Source: a virus. From it: a stretch of DNA of 34,733 nucleotides. The notes under the pieces were generated by a model that was given only the letters and a program-made list of their open reading frames with translations, was not told the origin of the DNA and did no database searches. Below are positions 13,659-21,227 of the stretch, one piece after another. A program made the translations under genes and the position numbers. Within the stretch, counting starts at the first letter, position 1. Every line of letters starts with the position of its first letter. The stretch spans positions 1 to 34,733 of IMG/VR virus record IMGVR_UViG_3300037189_003543; one strand, written 5' to 3'.

Positions 13659-13955
13659 ATGGCAATTGTACACGATAGCTTTGCATTAGCGGCTGCCACA
13701 CCTACCATTATTGCAACAATCCCAGCGGGAAACCCTACAACCGTTGTGACGGTCACTAACGTAAACGCTGGCTCAGTGTTCATTGGTGACTCCTCTGTGG
13801 CTACGGGTAATACTGTTGACCGCGGCCTTAGAATTGCGACTAACGCAACTCAGCAGGTGTCGTTAAACGCTGGGGATGTGCTTTATGCCATTTCTCTTGC
13901 TGGAACCTCATCTTCCTATGACGTAACCGTTCTTTACTCTAAGGTAGTCGCGTAG
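13659..13955 (+). CDS. Small beta-rich virion-type protein
   Basis: This encodes 98 residues starting after TAAGGAGACCTC. The sequence is nearly all beta: TVVTVTNVNAGSVFIGDSSV, then VSLNAGDVLYAISLAG, then YDVTVLYSK. Short proteins with V-VTN----VFIG-S-V and GD-LYAI are frequent in phage structural regions and form one small sandwich domain, perhaps a decoration or cap. It ends TAG, whose G begins the GTG of the next microgene. Confidence 0.5.
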   Translation: MAIVHDSFALAAATPTIIATIPAGNPTTVVTVTNVNAGSVFIGDSSVATGNTVDRGLRIATNATQQVSLNAGDVLYAISLAGTSSSYDVTVLYSKVVA

Positions 13956-14098
13956 TGCCTTTCAAGTCACAGTCTCAGCGTAAGTTTATGTACTCGCAGC
14001 ACCCAGAGATGGCTAAGGAGTGGGAAGACAAAACCCCTAAAGGGAAGAAGCTTCCTAACAAAGTAAAGAAAACCACCAAGAAGAAGGCAGGTAAGTAA
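13955..14098 (+). CDS. Lys-rich microprotein (47 aa), MPFKSQSQRKFMY family
   Basis: A 47-residue frame from GTG 13955, overlapping the TAG of the previous gene by one base. The protein begins MPFKSQSQRKFMYSQHPEMA, then KEWEDKTP-GKKLP, and ends in a Lys-rich tail. MPFKS-AQ--FM---HP--AK-W is a recurrent microprotein in many tailed phages, usually near head or tail genes, with no settled function. The strong basic charge suggests binding to nucleic acid or an acidic protein. Confidence 0.65.
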   Translation: MPFKSQSQRKFMYSQHPEMAKEWEDKTPKGKKLPNKVKKTTKKKAGK

Positions 14099-14099
14099 T

Positions 14100-14246
14100 A
14101 TGTGCGCTACGTGCGGATGTATGGGCAAGAAGTCTAAGAAGAAGATGTCCCCAAAGCAACAGAAACTTGCTGGTGCAGCTTCTCCTAAAGGTAAGATAAC
14201 TGGAGCCGACTTCAAGGCCCTTAAGAAGAAAGCAGGTAAGAAGTAA
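14100..14246 (+). CDS. Cys/Lys microprotein (48 aa), first of a pair
   Basis: A 48-residue frame from ATG 14100, one base after the previous stop. It begins MCATCGCMGKKSKKKMSPKQ, with Cys2, Cys5 and Cys7, and ends GADFKALKKKAGKK. Its stop TAA shares its last A with the ATG of the next gene (TAATG). The N-terminal Cys cluster plus basic tail is shared with the downstream gene, suggesting duplication. Metal binding is possible but three Cys alone would need a partner or dimer. Confidence 0.6.
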   Translation: MCATCGCMGKKSKKKMSPKQQKLAGAASPKGKITGADFKALKKKAGKK

Positions 14247-14464
14247 TGTGTAAGTCATGTGGATGTGGCTGCTCAAAGCCAAACTGTAACGGCGCTTGCA
14301 AGAAGGCCGATAAAAAGCAGGATAAAAAGCTTGAAAAGGGCATGACCCCAGCTCAGAAGAAGAAGTTTGAAGCTGCGGACAAGAAGATGGATAAGAAGAA
14401 GCCATCTCGTGCCGAAGATAAGAAGATGGACAAGGCCTTAGCCAAGAAGGTCAAAAAGAAGTAA
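14246..14464 (+). CDS. Cys-cluster Lys-rich small protein (72 aa), second of a pair
   Basis: This encodes 72 residues. Six Cys lie in the first 18 residues (2, 5, 7, 9, 14, 18; MCKSCGCGCSKPNCNGAC), a metallothionein-like spacing. The rest is extremely rich in Lys with alternating Asp/Glu (KKADKKQDKKLEKG, KKMDKKKPSRAEDKKMDKA). It is likely an unstructured or single-helix basic tail. It overlaps the preceding Cys/Lys gene and is closed by a terminator 8 bases downstream. The function is unknown; metal storage, DNA condensation or a packaged basic protein are conceivable. Confidence 0.65.
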   Translation: MCKSCGCGCSKPNCNGACKKADKKQDKKLEKGMTPAQKKKFEAADKKMDKKKPSRAEDKKMDKALAKKVKKK

Positions 14465-15702: not shown

Positions 15703-17274
15703 ATGGCATTTTCCCGTCCTGGGGTGTACGTTCAAGAGACGCTGACCCCAACACAGCAAACGCCTGGACCAGCTTCCGACTCAGTAGCAGCCTTCATCGG
15801 CGCTAATGACAAGGGCCCAGTTGTTCCTACGCTTGTTACTTCTTGGAGCCAGTATGTAAATCTATTTGGTTCTTGGAACACATCTGCTCCTAACGACCTT
15901 CCAATTGCCCTATGGCAGTTCTTCACCAACGGTGGTCGTCAGGCTTATGTACTTCGTGTTGTTACTACAGGTGACTCAACACCTTCTAACAATGCAACTG
16001 CTGCTGCCCGTATCCTGCAGGACCGCGCAGGAACACCAGTCAACACCCTTTCTCTAACAGCTATTAACCCAGGTACTTGGGGCAACCAGATTAACGTAAC
16101 TGTTACTGATGCGCCAACAACTGGTTACTTTAACCTCACCGTTTACAACGGTGGGACAACAGACGCTTACATTGTAGAGCGCTTCACAGACATCTCAATG
16201 GTGACTACTGATGCCCGTTACTCTGTAAACGTTATCAACGCTAGCTCTTCTTATCTTATTGCGGCTGATGGTGGCTCTTCATCTTCAGGCGCAACAAAGA
16301 ACCCAGCTTTGACAGTAGTTAACTTCTACTTATCAGGTGGGCTCAACGGATACGCTATCGGTACTGCAGCAATCCAGGCAAAGCTAAGCACATCTGGTAC
16401 TTCCCCATTTGATGTCATTAGCCAGTCTCTTATCCTCAACATCCCTAACTACACAGATACCAACACTGTTAATGCAGCTTTAGCTTATGCTGCTAACCGT
16501 CAAGACGTCTTTGTTGTTATTGACCCAGTTGCAGGAGCCGCAGTAGGCCCAGTTGGTACCTCTGGAACTGAGCTTTACACAGCTGCTACATACGGAACTA
16601 GCACAACTGGTTCATATGGAGCTGTCTACTACCCACAAGTTACCATTGCTGACCCAACCCTTGGTCTAGGTTCTGCATCTGGAGCTACTAAGACTGTTGC
16701 TCCTGGAGGAGCTATCATCGGTCTTTACGCTTCTACAGACGCATCTCGTGGAGTCTTCAAGGCCCCAGCTGGTATCCAAACACGTCTTGCTGGTGTTGTC
16801 TCAGTTACACCACTGTCAAGCACAGACCTTGATTCTCTAAATACATCGTCTGTACCTGTAAACGCTATTAAGTACGTTCCAGGTTCAGGCATTGTAGTTA
16901 TGGGCGCTCGCACACTTAAGTCAGGTTATATCGACCGTTATGTACCAGTGCGTCGTACCCTTATCTACTTGGAGAAGTCACTTAAGGACCTAAGCCAGTT
17001 TGCAATCTTTGAGCCAAACGATGCTGCTCTATGGCGCCGTTTGAACTCAACTTTGTCAAGCTTCCTTACTAACTTCTGGTCTCAAGGTGGGTTAAATGGA
17101 GCTACACCTGCACAGGCATTCTATGTAAAGGTTGACTCAACTAATAACCCACAGGCTTCCATTGACAATGGAGAAGTGCACATTGAAGTTGGCGTTGCTC
17201 TACAGCGTCCAGCCGAATATGTAGTCATCAAAATCGGTCAGTTTAACGGTAGCACGACCGTTACTGTAGCGTAA
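15703..17274 (+). CDS. Contractile tail sheath protein
   Basis: This encodes 523 residues from ATG 15703 after TTAAGGAGATAA. The N-terminus FSRPGVYVQETL is the standard sheath opening; VAAFIGANDKGP and GGRQAYVLRVV follow. The C-terminal domain has YVPVRRTLIYLEKSLKDLSQ, FAIFEPND, LWRRLNSTLSSFL and AEYVVIKIGQF, the conserved region that forms the sheath inner layer and handshake strands. It polymerises around the tube and contracts at infection. The length is usual for compact sheaths (T4 gp18 is about 659). It is co-transcribed with the tube gene 15 bases downstream. Confidence 0.95.
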   Translation: MAFSRPGVYVQETLTPTQQTPGPASDSVAAFIGANDKGPVVPTLVTSWSQYVNLFGSWNTSAPNDLPIALWQFFTNGGRQAYVLRVVTTGDSTPSNNATAAARILQDRAGTPVNTLSLTAINPGTWGNQINVTVTDAPTTGYFNLTVYNGGTTDAYIVERFTDISMVTTDARYSVNVINASSSYLIAADGGSSSSGATKNPALTVVNFYLSGGLNGYAIGTAAIQAKLSTSGTSPFDVISQSLILNIPNYTDTNTVNAALAYAANRQDVFVVIDPVAGAAVGPVGTSGTELYTAATYGTSTTGSYGAVYYPQVTIADPTLGLGSASGATKTVAPGGAIIGLYASTDASRGVFKAPAGIQTRLAGVVSVTPLSSTDLDSLNTSSVPVNAIKYVPGSGIVVMGARTLKSGYIDRYVPVRRTLIYLEKSLKDLSQFAIFEPNDAALWRRLNSTLSSFLTNFWSQGGLNGATPAQAFYVKVDSTNNPQASIDNGEVHIEVGVALQRPAEYVVIKIGQFNGSTTVTVA

Positions 17275-17289
17275 AGGAGATAAACACAA

Positions 17290-17919
17290 ATGGCAGATAC
17301 ATCGCTTAATCGGTTCTCTACTCTAGCGACCGACCCGTTACGCTCGTTTCGGTTCATCGTGGAGTTTACAGCCGCATCTGACGGAGTCTTCTCAAACAAG
17401 CTAACCACAGGTACAGGTGCTCCAAGCACCTCAGCTATGTCGGCTGGCTTTGTAGGCGGCTTCGTAAACGTCAGCGGGTTGAACATCACAACCCAAAGTA
17501 TCCAATACCGTGAGGGTGGATACAACACTACTGTGCACCAGGTACCAGGTATGACAACGTTCACACCTATTACCCTGCAGCGTGGTGTTCTATACGGAAA
17601 CGACCAAGCTATTGCCTGGATGCGTGGAATGTTTGCAGCTGTTGCTGGAGACGGACTCACAGCTGGCGTGGCTAACGGTAAGGGCTTCCGCGTTAACATG
17701 AAAATCTACGTAATGGACCATCCAAACTCTGCTGCGAGCAATACTCCTCGCATGGGCTTTGATATCCGTAACGCCTGGATTACACAGCTCAGCTACACAG
17801 ACTTGAACGCAAACGACGGAGCAATCCTGTTTGAGTCTATGAACTTGGTACATGAAGGCCTCTCAGTGTTCTTCACTGATAGCAGCTTCAACCCAACAGA
17901 TAGCCGTTCACTAGCTTAA
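17290..17919 (+). CDS. Tail tube protein
   Basis: This encodes 209 residues with AAGGAGATAAACACAA before ATG 17290. It opens DPLRSFRFIVEF, followed by VSGLNITTQSIQYREGGYNT and FTPITLQRGVL, then RNAWITQLSYTDLNAN and FESMNLVHEGL. This strand order (F-V-----, V-GL------YREGG, L-RG------W, A-------D----------L-HEG) is that of T4 gp19-type tube subunits. It forms the inner channel within the sheath. Its place directly after the sheath is canonical. Confidence 0.92.
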   Translation: MADTSLNRFSTLATDPLRSFRFIVEFTAASDGVFSNKLTTGTGAPSTSAMSAGFVGGFVNVSGLNITTQSIQYREGGYNTTVHQVPGMTTFTPITLQRGVLYGNDQAIAWMRGMFAAVAGDGLTAGVANGKGFRVNMKIYVMDHPNSAASNTPRMGFDIRNAWITQLSYTDLNANDGAILFESMNLVHEGLSVFFTDSSFNPTDSRSLA

Positions 17920-17942: not shown

Positions 17943-18737
17943 GTGTCAAACATCATCACTGATGCTGAACTAGTATCACAATACGCTAAAAAGGCTATGG
18001 AAGAGCCCGAGGTGGTAATAACATCTCGGGCCCCTTCCGATACCGAAGTTGATTTGCCTGGCGGCTTTATTGGAGCTGACGGGAAACTAGTAAAAACCGC
18101 AGAGGTTCGAGAGCTTAACGGAGCTGACGAAGAGGCTGTCTCAAAAGCAACCTATAGAGCAAAAGCCCTTAACGTTCTTCTTGAACGCGGTTTGGTAAAG
18201 ATTGGCGGAAAGGCAGTAGCCAGAGAAGACCTTGACAGTCTTCTTACGGGAGACCGAGACGCCATCCTTATCGGTATCCGACGAGTTACGTTTGGAGATG
18301 AGATTAATATGCGCGTTAAGTGCTTTGGTTGTCAGACTGAAGACGACGCTACGATTAACCTCTCTACTGATGTGCCTGTTAGAACCCTATCAGATGCTAT
18401 CAATGACCGCGCTTGGATTACGGAGTCTAAGCTAGGTCCAGTAGCAGTTGTCCTTCCTACAGGCTTAGTACAGAAGAAGCTGATGGACAATGCGGATAAG
18501 ACGTCCTCAGAAATTAACACACTACTCCTTTCAGGGTGCGTTCTTTCTGTCAACGGCAATCCATCTTTGGGAGCTTCAACCGCTCTATCACTAAGCATGG
18601 TAGACCGCGCAAAGATTGTAGACGAGATTTTGACACGCAACCCAGGCCCACGCCTTGGGGAGGTGACAAAGCCATGCAAGGCATGTGGTGAGGCAATGCC
18701 TTTACCGCTGAGCTTGCTTGATTTGTTTCAACTCTGA
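17943..18737 (+). CDS. Tail assembly chaperone / T4 gp26-like, zero-frame product
   Basis: This encodes 264 residues from GTG 17943 after AAAGGAGAATAACAC. The core runs from VDLPGGFI (about residue 36) through VREL-GADEEAVSK, VLLERGLVKIGG and LLTGDRDAILIGIRRVTFGD, the layout of T4 gp26-type baseplate/hub assembly proteins. Two CxxC pairs, Cys127/130 and Cys245/248, look like a zinc ribbon. Position between tube and tape measure is the classical slot of tail assembly chaperones. The stop is TGA followed by C, a weak termination context, and a second frame opens across it (see the frameshift entry). Confidence 0.8.
   Translation: MSNIITDAELVSQYAKKAMEEPEVVITSRAPSDTEVDLPGGFIGADGKLVKTAEVRELNGADEEAVSKATYRAKALNVLLERGLVKIGGKAVAREDLDSLLTGDRDAILIGIRRVTFGDEINMRVKCFGCQTEDDATINLSTDVPVRTLSDAINDRAWITESKLGPVAVVLPTGLVQKKLMDNADKTSSEINTLLLSGCVLSVNGNPSLGASTALSLSMVDRAKIVDEILTRNPGPRLGEVTKPCKACGEAMPLPLSLLDLFQL
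18726..18729 (+). other. Candidate +1 ribosomal frameshift site (TTT C)
   Basis: In the zero frame the last codons are GAT TTG TTT CAA CTC TGA (18720-18737). The +1 frame has TGA at 18709-18711 and is then open to TAG at 18883-18885, so the shift must happen within 18712-18737. TTT C at 18726-18729 lets tRNA-Phe move from TTT to TTC, a known +1-prone site type. CTC TGA C at 18732-18738 recalls the RF2 site but its re-pairing would be poor. Confidence 0.65.
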
Positions 18738-18885
18738 CCTTGTAGCTTACAACGATTTGTTGAATCAGTATGAGCTTTTAACTCGTACTTTCAATGGCTG
18801 GACTTTAACAGAGATACGTAACCTATCTGTTAGAGAAAGAGTAAATTGGTTAGACCGAGCACAGCGATACAGTAAGAGGAGGTAG
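18727..18885 (+). CDS. Frameshifted C-terminal extension of the tail assembly chaperone
   Basis: This frame, +1 relative to the chaperone, encodes 51 residues after the proposed slip, beginning NSDLVAYNDLLNQYELLTRT and continuing FNGWTLTEIRNLSVRERVNW to YSKRR. It has no ATG or GTG start and no ribosome site at its opening; TTG 18718 is the only near-start. The content is protein-like: helical, with a W-L-EI--L-VRER--WL pattern like the T part of G/GT chaperones. Joined product: 262 zero-frame residues plus 51, about 313. It leaves only two bases before the tape-measure start. The alternative, a non-coding remnant, fits poorly. Confidence 0.65.
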   Translation, partial: FNSDLVAYNDLLNQYELLTRTFNGWTLTEIRNLSVRERVNWLDRAQRYSKRR

Positions 18886-18887
18886 TT

Positions 18888-21227
18888 ATGGCAAATGACC
18901 CAAAGAGTGATTTAAACTTAGGCGGCTCACGCACTAGCTATGTTATTACCGACTTAAAGAGCGGTATCGCTGCCATGCGCCAAGAGACTGCTCTTCTTAA
19001 GCAAGAGTGGTCTAGCGTAGTTCAAACAATGGGAACAGGCGTCGCACGAATGAGCGGCGGAGGGTTTGGTGGGCAATCTAGTAATCAGGTTGCCCCTAAC
19101 CCAGTGTTCCACATACCTGGTCAAGATAATAACGGCGGCGGTAGCGGCGGAAACAACCAACTCTTTGCTCTTCCAGGTGGCAGTGGTGGCGGTGGCGGAG
19201 GCAACGGCCCAACTGTTATTGCTGGTGGAGGAAGTTACTGGGAGCGTCATGGAGCTGCTGGTAGCAATCTAAGTAACGCTGCTGTTCCTGGTGGTGGAGT
19301 TCTTTACGGGGCTGGATTAGCCCTAGGCTCAGCTAACTCTACATCTGACATGGTTCAGACTCAGCTTCTTCTTACACGCGCTTATGCAAACATGCCTATT
19401 ACAGGTAGCACTCTCTTTAACTCTGGACAGATGACCGCTACTGGAGTAAGCAACCCATTACTTGAGACCGCCATGGCCCGTATCAACGGCAATAAAGCAA
19501 ATCAAAACTTAGTTGCTGGGTATAACTACGCAAACGACACAATGATGCGTTTTGCCGCAGCTGGTGCCATGAACGACAAGATGGACGCCATTAATGCTTT
19601 GACAGCGGCTCAAAGCTATGGAATTACCAGCCCTAACTTCTTAATGGGTGCTGGCGGTGACTTTAACGGAAGCGTAGCTCAAGGCGTAGCTAATGTCTCC
19701 AACCTTGCTCCAGGTATTGGTGGAACAGGTGCTATGCGAGCATACGGAGTTATGCAGCAGGGCAAGAACGTTAACATGCTTAAGGGCGTTGGCATTCAAA
19801 TTCGAGACGCTAACGGTAACTTAAAACCGCCTGACCAGATTATTGATGACCTTTGGAAGAAGATTTGCCGAGACTACTCTGGTGCCTATGGAGGTAACAA
19901 GTCTCCTTCTGAAAGAGAACTTCTTATTGCGTTCCAGCCTGGTAACTCCATGGACGCCATGATTGGTAACCTATTTGGCGATGACGCTATGGTCTACACC
20001 TTGGTAAAGAACGGTCTTATCTTTAAAGCCCGTCAAACAGCATCTGGTGGAAGCACAGCTATAAACGCGGCTAATGCTTTGGAAGCTAATATGACTACAT
20101 CGGCTGTGCAGTCGTTTAACTATGGTAACTCTATTGCTACTCAAGGTCTAGGAATGACCGCTAGCACTGGAGCTGCTGGGTTTTATGCTACAAAGATGAC
20201 GCTTACTGATATGGGTAATGCGGCTAACCAGAACCCTGTTTCTGCAGCAGCTATCAAAATGATGAATGGCTTGGCTGCAGTTCTTCAAACATTAGGCTCT
20301 GCTGGTAATGGTATTGGCGGAAAGTTCATGGGGCTGCTCGCTAACTTAGCTGGAGCTAAAGCTGAGGGCGGTCCAACCAACGCAGCTAATACGTACCTTG
20401 TAGGTGAAAAGGGCCCAGAGCTCTTTGTCCCTAACGTCAATGGAACTATCATTCCTAACAACGCTTTACCTTTAAACTACAAAGGTGCTCGCGCTGGCGG
20501 CGGTCAGGTAAGCATTAATGACTTCTCTACAGACATTCTTAATAAGCTTGGTGCACCTGTAACCTCAGAAAACCTAGCTGGTCTTGCGGATTGGGCTAAC
20601 TGGGAAGGTGGGGTTATTAATGGCATAGCAAACGCTAAGCAAAAGAACCCTGCTTCATATAACCCGTGGGATACCACTTGGAATATGCCTGGCGCTACTT
20701 CTATTAACTCTGTTGGAGTAAGAGCCTACGCTAACCTTTCAGATGGAGAGACTGCAACTCTTAACACTCTTAGACAGGCTAACATGAAGCCTATTAGAGA
20801 CGTGTTAATGAGCGGTAACGCCACTATCGATGAGATTGAAGCGGCTATTGCTAGTACTCCTTGGGGAACAAAGTTTGGTCTGACTTCTAGCGGAGCTTCA
20901 TCTAATGATACTGCTGGTTCCACCCTAGCTGATTTGTCTTCACAGATTAGTGACGCTTTAACTCAACAGTTTGGTGGACAGTATGCTCAGGCCTTCTTAA
21001 ACTACTTAGGACAGGATGCGTTTGGTGCAGGGGCTCTCCTCGCAACTCCTTCTGGAAGCACCACTACAAGTGGAACTTCTACAAGCGGCGGAACAGGAAC
21101 TACCAATAACTATGGTGGAGTCACCTTTAACTTAAACATCCCTGGCGCTGACCCTCAACAGATTAAGGGCATTATTGATGATTACCTATCTCAACTTAAG
21201 TCAGGAAGCGTGGTGGCTACACAATGA
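18888..21227 (+). CDS. Tape measure protein
   Basis: This encodes 779 residues with AGAGGAGG before ATG 18888. Residues about 55-130 are very Gly-rich and low in complexity. The C-terminal half holds the tape-measure hallmark at about 492-525: AEGGPTNAANTYLVGEKGPE followed by LFVPNVNGTIIPN. Helical Ala-rich stretches and MKMMNGLAAVLQTLGSAG-type hydrophobic segments lie before it. Tape measures set tail length at roughly 0.15 nm per residue, which would give a tail of the order of 110-120 nm if most residues count. Its position after the frameshifted chaperone is canonical. It overlaps the next gene by ATGA. Confidence 0.88.
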   Translation: MANDPKSDLNLGGSRTSYVITDLKSGIAAMRQETALLKQEWSSVVQTMGTGVARMSGGGFGGQSSNQVAPNPVFHIPGQDNNGGGSGGNNQLFALPGGSGGGGGGNGPTVIAGGGSYWERHGAAGSNLSNAAVPGGGVLYGAGLALGSANSTSDMVQTQLLLTRAYANMPITGSTLFNSGQMTATGVSNPLLETAMARINGNKANQNLVAGYNYANDTMMRFAAAGAMNDKMDAINALTAAQSYGITSPNFLMGAGGDFNGSVAQGVANVSNLAPGIGGTGAMRAYGVMQQGKNVNMLKGVGIQIRDANGNLKPPDQIIDDLWKKICRDYSGAYGGNKSPSERELLIAFQPGNSMDAMIGNLFGDDAMVYTLVKNGLIFKARQTASGGSTAINAANALEANMTTSAVQSFNYGNSIATQGLGMTASTGAAGFYATKMTLTDMGNAANQNPVSAAAIKMMNGLAAVLQTLGSAGNGIGGKFMGLLANLAGAKAEGGPTNAANTYLVGEKGPELFVPNVNGTIIPNNALPLNYKGARAGGGQVSINDFSTDILNKLGAPVTSENLAGLADWANWEGGVINGIANAKQKNPASYNPWDTTWNMPGATSINSVGVRAYANLSDGETATLNTLRQANMKPIRDVLMSGNATIDEIEAAIASTPWGTKFGLTSSGASSNDTAGSTLADLSSQISDALTQQFGGQYAQAFLNYLGQDAFGAGALLATPSGSTTTSGTSTSGGTGTTNNYGGVTFNLNIPGADPQQIKGIIDDYLSQLKSGSVVATQ

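Follow-up and report, generated by a model that had tools for sequence, protein, structure and literature searches.

A probable programmed +1 frameshift at an invariant TTT-C in a T4 gp26-like tail assembly chaperone gene of bacterial phages

How could a single phage gene supply both a short and a long tail assembly chaperone? The question is raised by a viral sequence of 34,733 nucleotides (IMG/VR record IMGVR_UViG_3300037189_003543, positions 1 to 34,733; hereafter the window), in which a gene lying between a gp19-like tube gene, itself preceded by the sheath gene, and the tape measure gene is continued past its stop codon by a second open frame. We consider it very likely that a programmed +1 frameshift at TTT-C yields the short and the long chaperone from this one gene. 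The locus is laid out as follows:

15703-17274, + strand: tail sheath (PF17482, E 3.4e-10; phrog_23, E 7.3e-53)
17290-17919, + strand: tail tube, T4 gp19 family (PF06841, E 6.1e-25)
17943-18737, + strand: putative short tail assembly chaperone (TAC-N; T4 gp26-like, PF12322), 264 aa
18712-18885, + strand: +1 reading frame, open from 18712 to the TAG at 18883-18885
18726-18729, + strand: proposed shift site TTT C, the P-site Phe codon plus the first base of the A-site CAA
18735-18737, + strand: zero-frame stop TGA, two codons past the slip codon
18730-18882, + strand: C-terminal extension (TAC-C), P2 GpE-like, 51 codons, joined after Phe262
18888-21227, + strand: tape measure protein (phrog_5062 tape measure, E 5e-4)

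The frame-0 gene ends in TTG TTT CAA CTC TGA, and a TGA at 18709-18711 directly precedes the opening of the +1 frame, the two frames overlapping by 26 bases (18712-18737). When TTTC is read as a single Phe, an uninterrupted fusion of 313 aa results, with the junction LLDLF-NSDLVAYNDLL; the extension therefore comprises 51 residues. Its TAG ends two bases ahead of the tape-measure ATG at 18888. The original prediction had given the opening position, the overlap and this gap, all of which are borne out by the sequence. The tape-measure SD, AGGAGG at 18877-18882, sits inside the extension's last codons, and translation of the extension would therefore run over the tape-measure ribosome site. Elsewhere in the window, positions 13955-14464 hold three adjacent short ORFs rich in Lys and Cys, of 47, 48 and 72 aa, one of which starts MCKSCGCGCSKPNC; no tRNA genes were found in the window.

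What does the frame-0 gene encode? Its 264-aa product, which contains two CxxC pairs, matches PF12322 (the T4 gp26/gp51 family, T4_baseplate) with E 2.3e-7 and 31.1 bits, above the curated cut-off of 24.5 bits, and phrog_150 with E 2.1e-7; relatives score 33.4 (BRock), 100.4 (SP-15) and 85.6 bits (LIS04) against PF12322. An AlphaFold model of this short form (mean pLDDT 85.6) matches T4-type hub chaperones with E 3.4e-21 in a viral library of predicted structures, the only library to return strong matches, while the sole credible fold match in the PDB is the HK97 tail assembly chaperone 2OB9 (probability 0.72, with a weak E of 0.89). A PDB sequence search gave no match, nor did a DNA-level search among phages. 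The order of tube, chaperone and tape measure genes is common to Streptomyces phages and SP-15. From genome place, family and two-form logic we infer that the product of 17943-18737 acts as a tail assembly chaperone.

Is the +1 frame genuinely coding? A scan of IMG/VR returned 80 relatives, 78 of them readable across the junction; together with four Streptomyces phage loci and the window, these make 83 readable loci, which, grouped at 85% DNA identity, give 42 clusters. Protein-level conservation of the +1 frame is seen in all 42 non-redundant clusters, with six invariant residues in the alignment of 42 extensions, and the frame's differences distribute over codon positions 1/2/3 as 5948/3121/10255 in 565 pairwise comparisons. 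As judged from sequence, the frame thus evolves under protein constraint. Both other frames contain stops over the extension in 42/42 clusters, and a -1 reading is closed after a few codons; the extension lies in +1. Stop codons scattered through the +1 frame of relatives, an outcome that would have told against the original prediction, occur in none of them. The P2 GpE family PF06528 is weakly matched by 21 of the 42 extensions (best E 2.3e-4). Each of 11 records, among them three complete Streptomyces phage genomes, contains one copy of the extension, and the upstream gene is single-copy, too; unlike in T4, no second, in-frame long-form gene was found, and each domain occurs once per record searched.

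Might the extension nevertheless be a small gene of its own that needs no frameshift, being translated from its own start or through termination and reinitiation close to the stop of the upstream gene? Overlapping stops and starts are frequent in phages, the GenBank entries of the Streptomyces phages annotate the extension as a separate hypothetical ORF, and a TTG occurs at 18718 in the +1 frame of the window. However, 17 of the 42 clusters lack any ATG, GTG or TTG before the conserved core, 35 lack ATG and GTG, and a four-base SD-like match accompanies just two of the candidate starts. A separate gene would also leave unexplained why TTT-C is invariant and why the +1 frame opens as late as 14 nt before the frame-0 stop. 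We therefore regard this explanation as very improbable. The expectation that the 51-residue frame has no start of its own holds in the sense that none is conserved among the 42 clusters, but not literally: besides the TTG at 18718, the window frame contains two more TTG codons downstream, none of the three with an SD-like sequence.

The evidence for a frameshift is concentrated at the putative slip codon. TTT-C is present in 83 of 83 window-type and Streptomyces phage loci (42/42 clusters) and is kept down to 35-38% protein identity, so that the comparison of relatives, finding both frames and TTT C conserved and the +1 frame maintained as protein throughout, supports a +1 shift at this very position. 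The Phe column of the site is TTT in every cluster, whereas the gene's two other Phe columns include TTC; even the Streptomyces phages, which favour TTC for Phe (TTC:TTT 32:5, 30:11, 34:8 and 31:8), use TTT here. On the 5′ side, the E-site codon varies (TTG, CTG, CTC, ATG, TTA), with TTG in 35/42 clusters as compared to ~16% of Leu codons overall. On the 3′ side, the A-site codon is CGC in 22 clusters, CGT in 8, CGA in 6, CAA in 5 and CAG in 1, that is, CGN in 36 and CAR in 6, the window having CAA. A search of genome contigs returned distant MAG loci only, including a proteobacterial one of 61% GC that reads TTG TTT CGC CCC TGA and is followed by a similar +1 extension.

This breadth also bears on whether the two frames are merely a sequencing error, a decayed fusion gene or the product of transcriptional slippage. 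A single-base difference would indeed join the frames, but the identical arrangement recurs in 83 loci, among them dozens of independent contigs and isolated Streptomyces phages, which excludes the sequencing error envisaged as a possible refutation, and a run of three T is too short for transcriptional slippage. As a group, these explanations strike us as vanishingly unlikely. Nothing above chance was found for a terminator or promoter at the shift site.

Does the stop codon itself take part? The distance from TTT to the stop is 9 nt in almost every window-type locus and 12 nt in one of them (L069) and the Streptomyces phages, corresponding to two and three codons after the slip, respectively. 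Its identity varies (TAG in 18, TAA in 17 and TGA in 7 of the 42 clusters), and so does the codon before it (CTC, ATA, TTT, CTA, TTA, GTA, ATT). The weak TGA-C context, which the original prediction had pointed out, hence probably lies outside the signal. The same observations weigh on a shift at the stop codon (NNN_stop) in place of one at TTT-C. The window's UGA-C is a weak context, and prfB, SPP1 17.1* and the Listeria tsh genes are precedents for shifting beside a stop; yet the stop and the preceding codon vary freely, which makes such a shift unlikely, few of these codons could re-pair at +1, and there is no SD 3 nt upstream. We consider a stop-codon shift highly improbable.

How, then, would slippage at TTT-C proceed? 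Most ribosomes would read through to the TGA at 18735 and release the 264-aa short form. A minority would stall when the P site is occupied by UUU (Phe262) and the A site by CAA, or by CGN in most relatives. The tRNA-Phe anticodon GAA pairs better with UUC than with UUU. The peptidyl-tRNA-Phe could thus re-pair one base forward, from UUU to UUC, with full pairing, and decoding would resume at AAC 18730 to give the 313-aa long form with its GpE-like end domain of 51 aa. If lambda gpG/gpGT is a guide, coating of the tape measure may fall to the short form and recruitment of tube subunits to the long form. Slippage, its +1 direction and its P-site mechanism are what we infer from this arrangement. 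The same frame could be entered by a -2 slip, as is known for phage Mu gpGT (PMC5009743). In UUGUUUC, however, a -2 slip would place tRNA-Phe on UGU, a poor match, whereas +1 leads to UUC, a perfect one, and a -2 slip fits badly with an E-site codon that varies next to a TTT-C that does not; we judge a -2 event very improbable indeed. A +1 slip from UUU accords with published behaviour of this codon: UUU_Ynn has been reported as +1-prone in bacteria (PMC5009743), and peptide sequencing has established a +1 shift at UUU_CGU in influenza PA-X (PMC3498833).

What might stimulate the shift? No 3′ stimulatory RNA structure was detected, folding energies being near those of shuffled sequences (mean z -0.14 and 0.22), and no SD lies directly 5′ of the shift site. 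Shift efficiency could consequently be low. Further upstream, two features stand out in the window-type loci, the set in which both were examined:

18641-18666, + strand: SD-like conserved nucleotide element CCCAGGCCCACGCCTTGGGGAGGTGA (also CCCAGGCCCACGCCTTGGGGAGGTG), ~60 nt before the shift site
18679-18715, + strand: candidate 5′ hairpin, a possible stimulator, ending 10 nt before TTT

The element, whose SD-like core is GGGGAGGTG, shows the gene's strongest synonymous-codon conservation, and an exact 18-mer from it occurs once, and in the same place, in most window-type loci; the Streptomyces phages lack it. A hairpin of the element itself showed no covariation. Its use as the start of an overlapping small gene was rejected, the +2-frame ORFs after it being short and not conserved. 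The 5′ hairpin (A2 columns 53-89) is 91.8% paired and has 26 double-change cells as against 14.1 +/- 2.5 in shuffles, a control that ignores relatedness, and the hairpin is therefore a candidate only.

More distant members of the PF12322 family place the window in a broader setting. A +1 shift is predicted at the equivalent Phe in SP-15, LIS04, SagM-GXN1, LR756508 and immuto, as well as in 9/9 non-redundant loci of the BRock type (TTT followed by CGN or CAG) and at TTT-Y in 39/39 loci of the Flavobacterium-phage type (TTT CTT/CTA TGG or TTT TTT TGG). In Listeria phage LIS04 (locus L085, 3600-3666), TTT TTT AGT replaces TTT C, and a +1 slip at the first Phe codon would have to lead from TTT onto TTT. 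At the equivalent Phe of the cyanophage type, the arrangement is that of a -1 shift at T_TTT_TTN (42/42 loci), and -1 is also the direction in XacN1, Aeh1, phiN3, Yut2, Ag3 and Vibrio D531. Existing annotation makes the gp51 of Kyanoviridae (cyanophage type; L095 2717-2899, L093 3202-3399 and L200-L279) a small ORF of its own, but it is the -1 continuation of gp26 across T_TTT_TTN, and the annotation should be merged. Lysobacter MAG loci of 64-67% GC (L282-L284, near 2199) contain a PF12322-like relative with GCT TTT TTT TTG, in which the T run is kept and the -1 extension resembles GpE/DUF6760; these loci possibly represent a prophage or a tail-like particle.

T4 itself has gp26 and gp51 on opposite strands, both matching PF12322 (E 8.8e-64 and 3.9e-52), and the in-frame C-terminal extension of its gp51 (...YSLNSISKMIPAERG...) resembles the cyanophage one (profile probability 62). 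A profile comparison links the extensions of the +1 group to those of the -1 group only weakly (score 22.8 as compared to a decoy maximum of 15.4; probability 40.7) and suggests that they may be homologous. A bolder reading would have an ancestral recoding site that repeatedly switched direction at one Phe, giving +1 UUU_Y in actinobacterial, Firmicute and Flavobacterium phages, -1 U_UUU_UUN in T4-like phages and a duplication in T4, and would at the same time have the slip of the window clade driven by the 5′ SD-like element and hairpin. We offer this combination tentatively and, with both parts taken together, think it rather doubtful.

In bacteria, it is rare for a programmed +1 shift to do without both a stop codon and a strong RNA structure, and such shifts are difficult to recognise. 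Here, a large family with a fixed UUU_C includes tractable isolates, the Streptomyces phages BRock, GiJojo and LuckySocke, and UUU_C slippage should therefore be measurable on bacterial ribosomes. For phage annotation, small ORFs falsely separated from the gp26-like genes they follow can be merged.

How does the proposed shift compare with known recoding systems? It differs from the prfB type, in which an SD is combined with CUU_UGA: the window's stop is two codons downstream and its SD-like GGGGAGGTG is ~60 nt upstream. Nor does it resemble the -1 tandem slippery type (X_XXY_YYZ), the extension being in +1. With lambda G/GT, P2 E/E′, Mu and SPP1 17.5/17.5* it shares the genome place and the two-form logic (PMC5009743; Xu, Hendrix, Duda 2004), but in these the ribosome moves by -1 (-2 in Mu) on a tandem slippery site, and the first domain is from a different family. 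Closer in mechanism are the UUU_CGN sites of PA-X and amalgaviruses, which slip at UUU_C with UUU in the P site, have CGN as their usual A-site codon and lack a 3′ structure (PMC3498833). Here the differences are the eukaryotic ribosomes, the PA-X E-site codon UCC as against UUG in the window, and a product that is a structural-assembly isoform, unlike PA-X; CGN is favoured at PA-X-like sites, and with CAA in its A site the window is alike but not strictly UUU_CGN.

The nearest parallel in layout comes from haloviruses HF1, HF2 and HSTV-2, for which a +1 shift at TTT-CGC in the tail chaperone has been proposed as a prediction only (PMC7230728). As in the window, two ORFs lie between tube and tape measure, the step is +1 and the slip motif, TTT-CGC in the haloviruses, is next to the first stop; the host, in contrast, is archaeal. 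In HF2 (L280 31028-31811, - strand) we see GAG AAG TTT CGC AGA TAG and a +1 extension. The HF2 chaperone was tried as a PF12322 member and gave no match, for which reason the two shift sites probably arose independently, as far as their sequences tell. In T4-like phages, gp26 and gp51 have been identified as short and long chaperones (Vladimirov, Gautam, Davidson 2022, Virology 566:9, as described in PMC10885494 and PMC12846349). With the halovirus proposal and these gp26-type chaperones already on record, a +1 event at TTT C on a gp26-like protein, called less usual beforehand, is less isolated than was thought.

In the open-access literature, we came across no account of a +1 shift in a PF12322 chaperone from bacterial phages, and what appears to be new is the use of +1 across gp26-type bacterial phages, together with a switch of direction at one homologous site. 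The T4-like chaperones belong to the same PF12322 family as that of the window, but T4 makes its two forms from two genes and its cyanophage relatives use -1 at U_UUU_UUN, whereas the window would use one gene and +1 at UUU_C. Related chaperones thus offer a natural experiment, in which the same two products would be reached via a +1 shift, a -1 shift or gene duplication.
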